Shown: piece after piece, positions 24,933-28,005 of the stretch
Numbering within the stretch: the first letter of the stretch is position 1
Layout of the letters: each line of letters begins with the position of its first letter
Assembly: GCF_000021985.1 (NCBI RefSeq)
Contig: NC_011901.1
Coordinates: forward strand, 620,001-684,000
Direction of reading: 5' to 3'
From: Thioalkalivibrio sulfidiphilus HL-EbGr7
GTDB taxonomy: Bacteria > Pseudomonadota > Gammaproteobacteria > Ectothiorhodospirales > Ectothiorhodospiraceae
DNA: 64,000 nt
Program-made: the position numbers and the translations under genes
Notes under the pieces: generated by a model
Database searches by the model: none
Seen by the model: only the letters and a program-made list of their open reading frames with translations
Told to the model about the DNA's origin: nothing

Positions 24933-25301
24933 TCAATCCTCGCCATAGGCGAGGTTCAGGGTCTCGGCCACCGACCGCAGACGCTTGTCCCGTGTCCACA
25001 GTTGCGTCGAGCCGCCCAAGGTCACCGCGGCCAGCAGGTGCGCATCCACGTAACCGATGCCCAGGCCCTTCAGCGCGTTGCGTTCGATGAAAAACAGCAC
25101 CTCCTCATCGCTGGCAACGACCGCTTGCGGTAGGTCCTTGAGCAGCCGCAGTACCTCGCTGCGGTTACGCAGGTTGCCGCAGGCCAGCTCACCGACCACG
25201 AAAGGGTGCATCAGCACCTGACTGCGGTTCAGCAACTCCGCGAGCACCGCATCACCGGTGCGCAGGTGATCGACCCAGACCGAGGTATCAACCAGGATCA
25301 T
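24933..25301 (-). CDS. vapC: VapC-type PIN-domain toxin
   Basis: A 122-residue PIN-domain ribonuclease. The acidic active site is complete: MILVDTSVWVDHL (first Asp), VVGELACGNL (Glu), GIGYVDAHLLAA (Asp) and LWTRDKRL (last Asp). VapC toxins cut tRNA or rRNA when released from the antitoxin. The ATG overlaps the stop of the antitoxin gene by 4 bp (ATGA), the usual coupled arrangement. Confidence 0.93.
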   Translation of the reverse strand: MILVDTSVWVDHLRTGDAVLAELLNRSQVLMHPFVVGELACGNLRNRSEVLRLLKDLPQAVVASDEEVLFFIERNALKGLGIGYVDAHLLAAVTLGGSTQLWTRDKRLRSVAETLNLAYGED

Positions 25302-25495
25302 GCCGGATCGGACTGTCGGCGGGGCACGGTCTCCAACTGCGGTTCACTGCCGCCCAGCCGTGCCAGCCGCCGGGCGCTCTCGCGCTCGATCAAGGCGCGC
25401 AGCCCCTCCCGCACCAGGGCGGCTTTTTCGGTCATTCCGGTGATGCGTTGGGCTTCGGCCAGTAACTGGTCATCGATGTTCAGGGTTGTACGCAT
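25298..25495 (-). CDS. vapB: VapB-type antitoxin
   Basis: A 65-residue ribbon-helix-helix antitoxin of the VapB/Rv0623 type: MRTTLNIDDQLLAEAQRITG forms the DNA-binding strand and first helix, TEKAALVREGLRALIERE the second helix, and the C-terminal tail would wrap the toxin. The ATG at 25495 fits the family; the 15 upstream codons do not. A dyad (GCATCAA / TTGATGC) directly upstream is the likely operator for autorepression. Confidence 0.9.
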   Translation of the reverse strand: MRTTLNIDDQLLAEAQRITGMTEKAALVREGLRALIERESARRLARLGGSEPQLETVPRRQSDPA

Positions 25496-25521
25496 GGGGA
25501 GCGCCTCGTTAGGTTTCGGAT

Positions 25522-25547
25522 GCATCAAATAATACATCACTTGATGC
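25522..25547. promoter_or_regulatory. Dyad operator candidate of vapBC
   Basis: GCATCAA and TTGATGC are perfect 7-bp arms 12 bp apart, 27 bp upstream of the vapB ATG, with an AT-rich spacer. Ribbon-helix-helix antitoxins bind such dyads. Function is inferred from position. Confidence 0.5.
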
Positions 25548-25910: not shown

Positions 25911-27492
25911 TCACCCTGCCGTGTTCGACGACAGACGCAAGGCGCCGCGGATTCGGTCGCGGTGGTCCGGGTCGAGCCCCGCCTCGTCGGCATACTCCGA
26001 CCAGCGTGCCACCACGCGCTGGATCTCGTCGAGTATCGCCTCACCACGACCACGCTTTAGGCCGGCCACCTCCGCACAGGCGACGAAGTCCGCCGACACG
26101 AAACCGTCGCGCTTGCCGTTGAGGCTCATCTGGTGGGTGGAGGTCCAGCGCCCGCCAGGCTGGTAGCTGTAGGTCACGTCAAAGGCCGGCGAGAGGGACC
26201 AGCGCCCGGCCCGGTCCATCAGAAAGGCGATGTTCTTCACGTGGTCGTCCTGATTGCGGGCCACGATGTTGAACACCATGCGGCGAAACTGCTGCTCCAC
26301 GTCGCGCATGGGCAGGCGCAATCTGCGGATGACCTGGAAGGCCTGCTCATAGCTGTAGGCGCCGGCCATGTTGTAATCGAAATGCGCCAGTGCACCAAGG
26401 GACTGCATGTGCAGCTTCTCGCCGCCGTCCAGTCGGTCGAAGCGTCTGGTCATGAAATGCCGGCGGCCGTTCTCCTCCAGCAGGCGACATTCGTTCATGG
26501 TGATGCCGGCATCGCGCGCCATGAGGAAGTAGGCGTACTCGATCACGCCGTAGCCCTTGGGGTCTTCAAGCTCCTTGTCCTTGTTGCCGCTCACGCCGTC
26601 GAACTTGAGCAGCCAGTAGCCGAACCCCTCGCCCGCGTCCACCTGCCCGGAGCGTACCTCGTTGGTTTCCGGGTTCCAGGCGATCACGGCCTTGGCGCGC
26701 GCACCGCCCGCGGAGGTGCCCACCTGCAGGATCTGCTGCAGGGCGTCGCCGTTGTGCATCTCGTCACCGAAACGGGTGGCCAGTTCGCCGCGGTGGGTGA
26801 GGATGTCCGAGGCCAGCGCCACCAGTTGATCCACCTGGATCTTCTGCGCCGCCCGCGCCTTCGGGCCTGTCACCGGCTCGAACTCCAGCGCACCCATGCC
26901 GCGCCTGCCGGTGTAGCAGAGACGCTCCACGGAATTGAAGGAATCGGGGGTCCTGCCCTGGGTGGCCAGCCAGGCGTCGATCAGGGCGTTGCCGAACTTG
27001 TCTGGCAATGAATCCGCCAGCAGGCCGGGCAGACCGTGGAAGGTCTCCCGCGCCAGAGCGGGGAAGCGGTAAACGCCGGGGGCTAGTGTCGTGTCCCGTA
27101 AATATCTTGCCATTCAGAGCCCCGCAAAAGCGCCAAGGCAAGGCGCACACCGCAGGCAATGGCAGGCCCTTGGCAAGGTGTGCAACGCGGCATTGGCGCT
27201 TTTGCGGGGCTCCCTTCGGGCGCGGCTGTGCGGGCGTGTGGCGGTGTTACGCTTGCTTGAAATGGGGGTGGCCATTCCTGCGCAAGCGTGCCTTGCCACA
27301 CGCCCGCACAGCCACGCTGAATGGCAAGATATTTACGGGACACGACACTAGCGGCATGGTCAACGGAGCGATCTCGATGCCGCTTCGGGCAAAGGCCGGG
27401 TCATACTCGAAGCTGGCGACGTCGTCGCCGTCTTCCAGCGCGACGGCGCCGATGGTGCTGCCCCAGAGTTTCACTTCAGCCACCGACGTCAC
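25911..27492 (-). pseudogene. hipA: HipA-type kinase toxin split by a MITE
   Basis: The 5' part (27492 to 27348, GTG start overlapping the hipB stop) reads VAEVKLWGSTIGAVAL...IAPLTMPL, and the 3' part (27086 to 25911) reads APGVYRFPALARETF onward to the end. Taking out the 261-bp element with one CTAG joins them in frame as MPL-APGVYRF. The 3' part contains the whole kinase core: Gly-rich SAGGARAK, catalytic NQDDHVKN and the metal site LSPAFDVTYS. As it stands, the element supplies an ATG that reads MARYLRDTTLAPGV in frame, so a HipA lacking about 47 N-terminal residues could be made. Confidence 0.9.
27087..27347. mobile_element. 261-bp MITE with CTAG target duplication
   Basis: The ends are 31-bp perfect inverted repeats (27087-27117 and 27317-27347; they begin TGTCGTGTCCCGTAAATA) flanked on both sides by CTAG (27083-27086, 27348-27351). 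There is no transposase gene. Inside are two strong stems: 27117-27136 with 27193-27212, and a 19-bp perfect one, 27224-27242 with 27295-27313. The 4-bp duplication fits the YTAR rule of the IS5 group. It interrupts hipA, whose frame is restored by precise removal. Confidence 0.92.
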
Positions 27493-27860
27493 GATTCATC
27501 ACCCCATGTCCATGCCTTGCCCCCGGTGCGTGCCTTGGGGCCGGAGGGCGCACGGCGGCCGGATGCGCGCTGGCGGCTGCGGCCCGTGGTCTGTTCCTTG
27601 AGCCGTTCCATGGGCGTTGGGCCCGGCTCCGGCATGAGCTGATCCAGGGCGCTCATCAGGCCCAGCACCCGGAACAGCCGCACCAGGGTCACCAGCTGCA
27701 CGGAATGCCCCGCCTCCGCCCGCTCCACCGTGCGCTTGCCCACCCCGGCCTCGACCGCCAGTTGCGCCTGGGTCAGCCCGCGCCCGATGCGCAGCCTGGC
27801 GAGCCGTTCGCCCAGCTCTGCGAGCACCGCGTCGTCTGTGAACTTTTCGTCGAGTTTCAT
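27489..27860 (-). CDS. hipB: HipB-type antitoxin / regulator
   Basis: A 123-residue protein with a Cro/C1-type helix-turn-helix: RLARLRIGRGLTQAQLAVEA followed by GVGKRTVERAEAGHSVQLVTLVRLFRVLG. The C-terminal 40 residues are basic and low-complexity. In HipBA systems this protein represses the operon and neutralises the kinase HipA. The stop overlaps the hipA GTG start. ATG at 27860 was chosen; a GTG three codons earlier is possible. The AT-rich dyad GCCTATAT / ATATCGCC at 27885-27908 is a weak operator candidate. Confidence 0.85.
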   Translation of the reverse strand: MKLDEKFTDDAVLAELGERLARLRIGRGLTQAQLAVEAGVGKRTVERAEAGHSVQLVTLVRLFRVLGLMSALDQLMPEPGPTPMERLKEQTTGRSRQRASGRRAPSGPKARTGGKAWTWGDES

Positions 27861-28005
27861 GATCGCCACTTATGACGAGATAATGCCTATATGATCCATT
27901 ATATCGCCACAAATTGCGAATTATTTTTAGTAGGGACTTCTGGGAGGTTTGGTTCTTTGCCGTGAGAGCTGGCTCCCCTCCGTGTGTGCGTCCCGGGCGC
28001 TAAAG

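Follow-up and report, generated by a model that had tools for sequence, protein, structure and literature searches.

The window analysed here is a 64,000-nucleotide stretch of the Thioalkalivibrio sulfidiphilus HL-EbGr7 genome, in which a 269-bp element without a gene (27083-27351) splits hipA. An earlier reading made from the letters alone (the sequence-only reading) had described an element with inverted ends, flanked by CTAG and lying inside hipA. This description was borne out: the terminal inverted repeats are perfect over 35 bp, CTAG included, CTAG stands at both ends, and hipA domains were found on either side. The features of the locus are as follows, with scores for R1, a covariance model built from 12 hairpins.

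27083-27351, no strand: whole element (MITE), from CTAG to CTAG, 269 bp
27083-27086, no strand: left CTAG, a target duplication or target remnant; a single four-base unit in relatives
27348-27351, no strand: right CTAG; a single four-base unit in relatives
27083-27117, plus strand: left terminal inverted repeat with an IS630-like end (inverted-repeat search; end comparison)
27317-27351, minus strand: right terminal inverted repeat, equal to the left one in reverse complement (inverted-repeat search)
27115-27211, plus strand: hairpin A, motif-forward on the plus strand (R1, 92.9 bits; in the R1 building set)
27212-27220, no strand: linker CCCTTCGGG separating hairpins A and B (sequence)
27221-27319, minus strand: hairpin B, motif-forward on the minus strand, homologous and inverted to A (R1, 93.0 bits; in the R1 building set)
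27352-27492, minus strand: 5' part of the interrupted hipA (Pfam Couple_hipA, positions 2-41 of 99)
25911-27082, minus strand: rest of hipA (Couple_hipA, positions 49-98 of 99, and HipA_C), its frame running on to an ATG at 27113 in the element end
27489-27869, minus strand: upstream HTH gene, hipB-like (open reading frame list; HTH match)

The outer arms, at 27082-27117 and 27317-27352, pair without a mismatch along 36 nt, made up of CTAG, 31 bp and one flanking G/C. Two internal inverted repeats of 23 nt each (96%) lie at 27117-27139/27190-27212 and 27220-27242/27295-27317, and one internal stem (locus L001) forms 19 of 19 Watson-Crick pairs, in agreement with the earlier claim of a gene-free element with two strong internal stems, one of them of 19 perfect pairs. 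The whole element folds at -199 and -201 kcal/mol on its two strands (z = -16 and -18), which none of 200 shuffles equalled. Frames wholly inside the element, taken from the open reading frame list, reach at most 86 aa on either strand; these were treated as chance, with no further test. An outward-facing ATG in the element end is in frame with the remaining hipA (a 400-aa frame from 27113), and a shortened HipA might still be made from it, its ribosome-binding site being untested. Near hipBA, two small adjoining minus-strand frames of 122 and 80 aa (24933-25540) look, by eye only, like a PIN-type toxin and antitoxin pair.

Further copies, for which the sequence-only reading had proposed a search, are present in the same genome. 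There are six full-length copies of the window subfamily, at 91-100% identity and with the window copy counted; a second subfamily, distinguished by its outer ends, has eight copies, two of them with an extra arm. Also in this genome are a deletion form of 153 bp, solo ends at 539438, 2870860 and 3214167, and an end-plus-end palindrome of about 40 bp with no hairpins left (L044 1501-1540; own genome from 1142258). Element matches were present in five of five genomes of the genus, the genome of the window included.

Comparison of insertion sites among these genomes revealed places without the element. In relatives G004 and G001 (95% identity), hipA is uninterrupted, with open frames of 440 and 438 aa, and carries one four-base unit, not CTAG, where the window has CTAG, the element and CTAG. 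A second copy lies between proC-like and yggT-like genes; G003 lacks it and retains one four-base unit, with a diverged left flank, and in G001, G002 and G004 the element is also absent, at a place too diverged to read. The third copy sits where a rimM-like gene ends, ahead of trmD. It is present in G000 and G003; the three other genomes lack it, and the flanks of their empty places are too diverged to read. The gene names at this third site were assigned from reading the sequence. Judged by eye, the rimM-like gene seems to end in this copy (L177, about 1142-1235) at a stop codon contributed by the CTAG of the element.

Two empty sites were readable, as CTCG and CAAC; CTAG itself was never seen empty. 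Their length fits a 4-bp (CTAG) duplication and a TA duplication within a four-base target alike, and because both sites fit both lengths and neither is CTAG, the choice between 4 bp and 2 bp cannot be made. Of the CTAG duplication claimed earlier, CTAG at both ends and a single unit in relatives are supported. The reading would have been refuted had relatives carried the same DNA as part of an intact hipA, or had other copies and empty sites been missing; as far as tested, neither is the case, with intact hipA genes lacking the element in relatives, and with both other copies and empty sites in existence. The stretch 27083-27351 is a MITE, as had been claimed: it is short, has terminal inverted repeats and no transposase gene, is dispersed in copies, leaves empty sites in relatives, and has IS630-like ends shared with an autonomous element on plasmids of other bacteria.

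Some rearranged forms were also seen. In L097, the inner part of hairpin A is reversed relative to the aligned copies, as if inverted between its arms. L165 and L224, taken as long elements with about 1.25 kb between the hairpins, were rejected as such, each being really two copies around a gene. These pairs are laid out like composite transposons, L224 270-1780 around a pentapeptide-repeat-like gene and L165 830-2459 around a membrane-protein-like gene, the gene kinds being read from translations.

The ends of the elements were compared with plasmid sequences. The window-type end matched only two records, at E = 0.3, both of them Cupriavidus plasmids with an IS630 gene and the same protein accession. 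The Cupriavidus element that was read (L305) agrees at 22 of 24 bases at one end and 18 of 24 at the other, has CTAG at both, and encodes a protein that matches DDE_3; the match, at E = 0.3 alone, carries weight because it falls at the CTAG ends of an IS630 element. The subfamily-2 end matched 38 records, with E from 0.002 to 0.3 among the 20 matches listed, 10 of which fall on genes annotated as IS630 transposase. For IS630 elements of Streptomyces, Pseudonocardia and Cupriavidus necator, the best end agrees with it at 23, 23 and 21 of the outer 24 bases, and the second end at 19, at none with 17 or more, and at 19 of 24; all three proteins match DDE_3. Ends of the type TTAACCCGGCAAC resemble those of an IS630 element with TTAACCCGGCGAC in another gammaproteobacterium (L307). 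ISY100, an IS630 element, inserts at TA according to the accessible portion of its description (PMC2170065).

An autonomous partner was not caught. A full-length insertion sequence with matching ends, for which the sequence-only reading had proposed a search, was found neither in the same genome nor in the genus, only on plasmids of other bacteria. DDE_3 was absent from all five genomes of the genus, in a transposase search that covered DDE_3 only and not IS5 or other families. The end pattern CTAGTGTCNTG occurs at 32 places in the same genome, against four for a reversed control; of seven unpaired places that were read, one was the end-plus-end palindrome and six had no second end within their 3-kb loci. 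The CTAGTACTC-type end had no plasmid match, and the 22 Pseudomonas records that the Stutzerimonas-type end matched, over 20-24 bases, had no annotated transposase under the matches listed. Whole elements matched no plasmid or phage, or only one partial sequence in Azotobacter, itself an R1 match.

Wider sampling gave a similarly partial link to IS630. Paired ends were present in 14 of 30 gammaproteobacterial DDE_3 loci, one of which (L307) has MITE-like ends, and in G067 and G242, the two genomes in which both were compared, the ends of the DDE_3 loci differ from those of the MITEs. Across 369 genomes, 35 contained both the core and DDE_3, 79 the core only, 59 DDE_3 only and 196 neither, an association that is not significant (p = 0.15). 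The terminal repeats of 47 elements (49 listed, two left out as too close to an end) fell into 10 clusters, with 17 of the 47 left ends starting exactly with CTAG, and only two of the 10 clusters could be tied to IS630. As judged by these alignments, the ends of the window element are IS630-like, and its actual transposase partner was not caught.

Between the ends lie two core hairpins that are homologous and mutually inverted. Each reads, in order, CAG, a stem of about 21 bp, CAAGGC(GC), a 7-bp second stem, GCAGG, the cap AATGG..CCTT, CAAG, the second stem, (GC)AACGC and the first stem. Using R1 at E <= 0.001, the hairpin was detected in 114 of 369 gammaproteobacterial genomes and in 91 of 272 genera; up to 11 candidates were scored per genome with rough E-values, and copy numbers are lower bounds. 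A pattern of 20 fixed bases from the inner hairpin matched at least 119 stretches in one-per-species genomes, whose titles are mostly of gammaproteobacterial groups, with Burkholderiales and Rhodocyclales among them. Cultured genera with the pattern include Stutzerimonas, Pseudomonas, Microbulbifer, Gilvimarinus, Salinicola and Comamonas. R1 matched a record titled Zetaproteobacteria and failed to match one titled Bifidobacterium breve, and no viral contig contained the pattern. A script outlined 55 two-hairpin elements, 47 of them of 261-284 bp.

None of 11 IS630 loci contained an R1 hairpin at E <= 0.01. The core therefore does not resemble an IS630 remnant, and looks rather like a separate module between IS630-like ends. 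At the gathering score, Rfam had no match over the window element or the elements of 17 loci, where only sub-threshold microRNAs appeared; off the elements, two of the loci gave one SRP RNA and one sub-threshold group II intron. An optional third arm, of about 71 nt or more and with small hairpins bearing GGGA-type loops, was seen just before the AACGCC of one hairpin. It occupies the identical spot in unlike subfamilies (L018, the same place as L261, and L064, L068, L072, L077, L140 and L248), and is either a repeat nested at a fixed target or a domain that can be dispensed with. Its GNRA-like loops were dropped as evidence for RNA, as the arm may be a nested repeat.

The hairpins covary extensively. 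Across 121 distinct hairpins, 93.4% of the pair cells hold standard pairs and 34 of 37 pairs have changed on both sides, with a covariation score of 0.827; shuffled alignments scored 0.188, and slid partners no more than 0.118. Since the alignment had been fitted to the model, its counts lean towards the structure. A MAFFT alignment of 12 hairpins gave 26 covarying pairs of 37 and a score of 0.719 versus 0.203. Stems change by compensation, and loop motifs stay. Covariation alone could be explained by the two arms copying each other as DNA. RNA tolerates G.U pairs and not A.C, and in cruciform DNA both strands are alike, making G.T and A.C equally common. Comparing G.T with A.C on a given strand is discriminating because a DNA cruciform is symmetric and an RNA is not.

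On the motif-forward strand of the model alignment, the ratio of G.T to A.C was 155:25 in stem 1, 67:31 in stem 2 (30 of the 31 being C.A) and 69:5 in the cap. The bias was also seen in the hairpins of 51 whole elements, at 131:25, with 43 elements leaning towards G.T against four, and four ties, whereas the terminal repeats of the same elements gave 44:41. The covariance model had served to find these elements; position set their orientation, the scoring was symmetric, and the counts are of elements, not of independent events. The 51 remained from 62, after exclusion beforehand of L202 and L225 as repeat places and of L138 as a further copy of the L066 subfamily, and after removal of L154, L182, L205, L235 and L253, which lie outside 245-300 bp, and of L140, L216 and L258, which failed pairing. 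The 24 of the 51 that came from an exact-pattern scan gave 65:13.

Without any covariance model, 82 hairpins gave 119:26, and 20 clusters leaned 15 to three with two ties (p = 0.0075). These 82 were what remained of 121 pattern matches when 27 cut by contig ends and 12 without a stem were set aside; the count includes 90 other mismatches, partly from 22-nt 5' arms read out of register. Coarser clustering shrinks the stem 1 bias, from 116:23 in 83 clusters to 53:14 in 23 and 22:11 in seven. Close copies show no bias, at 12:14, or 10:14 within the genus when four elements from other genera of the family are removed, so the evidence for RNA rests on deep comparison. The lack of bias in close copies is evidence against a strand bias of mutation and is consistent with decay once an element has inserted. 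With moderate confidence, and in the absence of transcript data, we infer that the hairpins are kept for a folded single strand, which would most simply be RNA; a strand-specific single-stranded DNA is not excluded. The earlier suggestion that the element may make a structured RNA has accordingly gained real but indirect support, from covariation and the strong excess of G.T over A.C.

We consider it probable that an IS630-family transposase acts in trans to move this MITE, whose conserved core of two inverted hairpins is RNA-like; both the transposition and the transcription are inferred. In this proposal, a transposase of the IS630 (Tc1/mariner) family would bind the terminal repeats of about 31 bp, excise the element and insert it at the TA within CTAG. 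Between the ends, the element would carry the conserved core of two homologous inverted hairpins and not a shrunken transposase gene. The two hairpins are forward on opposite strands, so that transcription into the element, from whichever flank, yields a forward hairpin before the other one. The inverted pair may thus constitute an RNA cargo independent of insertion orientation, which would account for the retention of two copies in inverted orientation. The predicted RNA hairpin comprises a stem, a CAA/GC internal loop beside GGCG/CGCC, a 3' AAC bulge, a GCAGG/CAAG loop and an AAUGG/CCUU cap. In the least certain step, the co-transcribed hairpin would be bound or cut by a host factor, which may soften the effect of insertions in operons such as hipBA, rimM-trmD and proC-yggT. 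The broader proposal, that a structured RNA is the class-wide cargo of these MITEs, present in two inverted copies and carried between some ten unlike end types of which two are matched to IS630, is offered tentatively, as somewhat short of an even chance.

The element could instead be an ordinary IS630-derived MITE whose palindromes persist by inverted-repeat self-copying, through template switching in cruciforms, with no RNA role. Private changes common to both ends of a copy (for example in L005, L015 and L101) are what such copying would leave, and the symmetric wobble of close copies (12:14) and terminal repeats (44:41), together with the few one-sided changes in the 12-hairpin alignment, speak for it as well. 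However, self-copying treats the strands alike and by itself does not produce a ratio of 131:25 in hairpins when the accompanying terminal repeats stand at 44:41, and it leaves the conserved unpaired motifs unexplained; we regard this account as unlikely, though not negligible.

Two other families of enzymes were weighed. A true 4-bp CTAG/YTAA duplication would make the element an IS5-type MITE like MITEPsy1 of Pseudomonas syringae, which, in the part of its description that was available, targets CTAG or YTAA with a 4-nt duplication (PMC3189936). The length of the empty sites would allow this, but the printed MITEPsy1 ends, as far as that source could be consulted, are unlike those of the window element, which match elements with DDE_3 transposases, and we give the possibility little weight. 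Least credible, in our estimate, is a REPIN-like element, in which a Y1 (RAYT) transposase would recognise the hairpins as single-stranded DNA. It would account for the two inverted hairpins and, since strand-specific single-stranded DNA gives a strand bias too, for the excess of G.T; Y1_Tnp matches occur in five of five genus genomes, and the core AAGGCG..ACGCCGC presumably resembles the REP of E. coli, a likeness that is untested. Yet the hairpins are preceded by CAG and not by a GTAG (or CGTC) tag; of the 30 Y1 places listed, 20 loci were searched and only one has an R1 match, a weak one of 27 bits; and the terminal repeats, together with the one four-base unit left at empty sites, speak for a DDE enzyme.

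The reading that we prefer, an IS630-mobilised MITE with an RNA-like core, bears on how such elements are regarded. The usual view of bacterial MITEs is of shrunken insertion sequences whose middle has no meaning, whereas here the motifs of the middle are common to the whole class, the ends differ, and the hairpins carry the G.U signature of a selected RNA. If this is true, about one-third of the sampled gammaproteobacterial genomes (114 of 369) contain an RNA cargo that is mobile, orientation-proof and so far overlooked, and its RNA role in the operons entered is directly testable.

Among known systems, IS630/Tc1-mariner elements (for example ISY100, and the Cupriavidus plasmid elements of L303 and L305) share CTAG ends with these MITEs and agree at up to 22 of 24 and 23 of 24 end bases; the MITE differs in having no transposase gene, and the 11 IS630 loci in having no R1 hairpin. 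Correia/NEMIS elements of Neisseria and RUP elements of Streptococcus are likewise short and gene-free with terminal repeats, and RUP is linked to IS630. RNase III cleaves transcripts that contain Correia elements, according to the portion of the report at hand (PMC10969869). No two-hairpin core with exchanged stems is described for either in the source text available, and sequences were not compared. MITEPsy1 is similar in its CTAG/YTAA target, short length and lack of a gene, and differs in being 100 nt long, with other 18-nt ends, and in being ascribed to IS5 (ISPsy2); the accessible text describes no two-hairpin core (PMC3189936). MITEs also occur in Thiomargarita, as stated in the available excerpt of PMC4853749, with which no sequence comparison was made. 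For the two-hairpin MITE family itself, no description was found in the open-licence literature searched. REPIN/REP elements with RAYT likewise consist of two inverted hairpins, and GTAG-5 REPs are reported for Thioalkalivibrio sp. HL-EbGR7 in the section of PMC3733652 that was available; the window element differs from them by its CTAG terminal repeats and the absence of a GTAG tag. We file a MITE with IS630-like ends as known in kind, and its RNA-like core as new.
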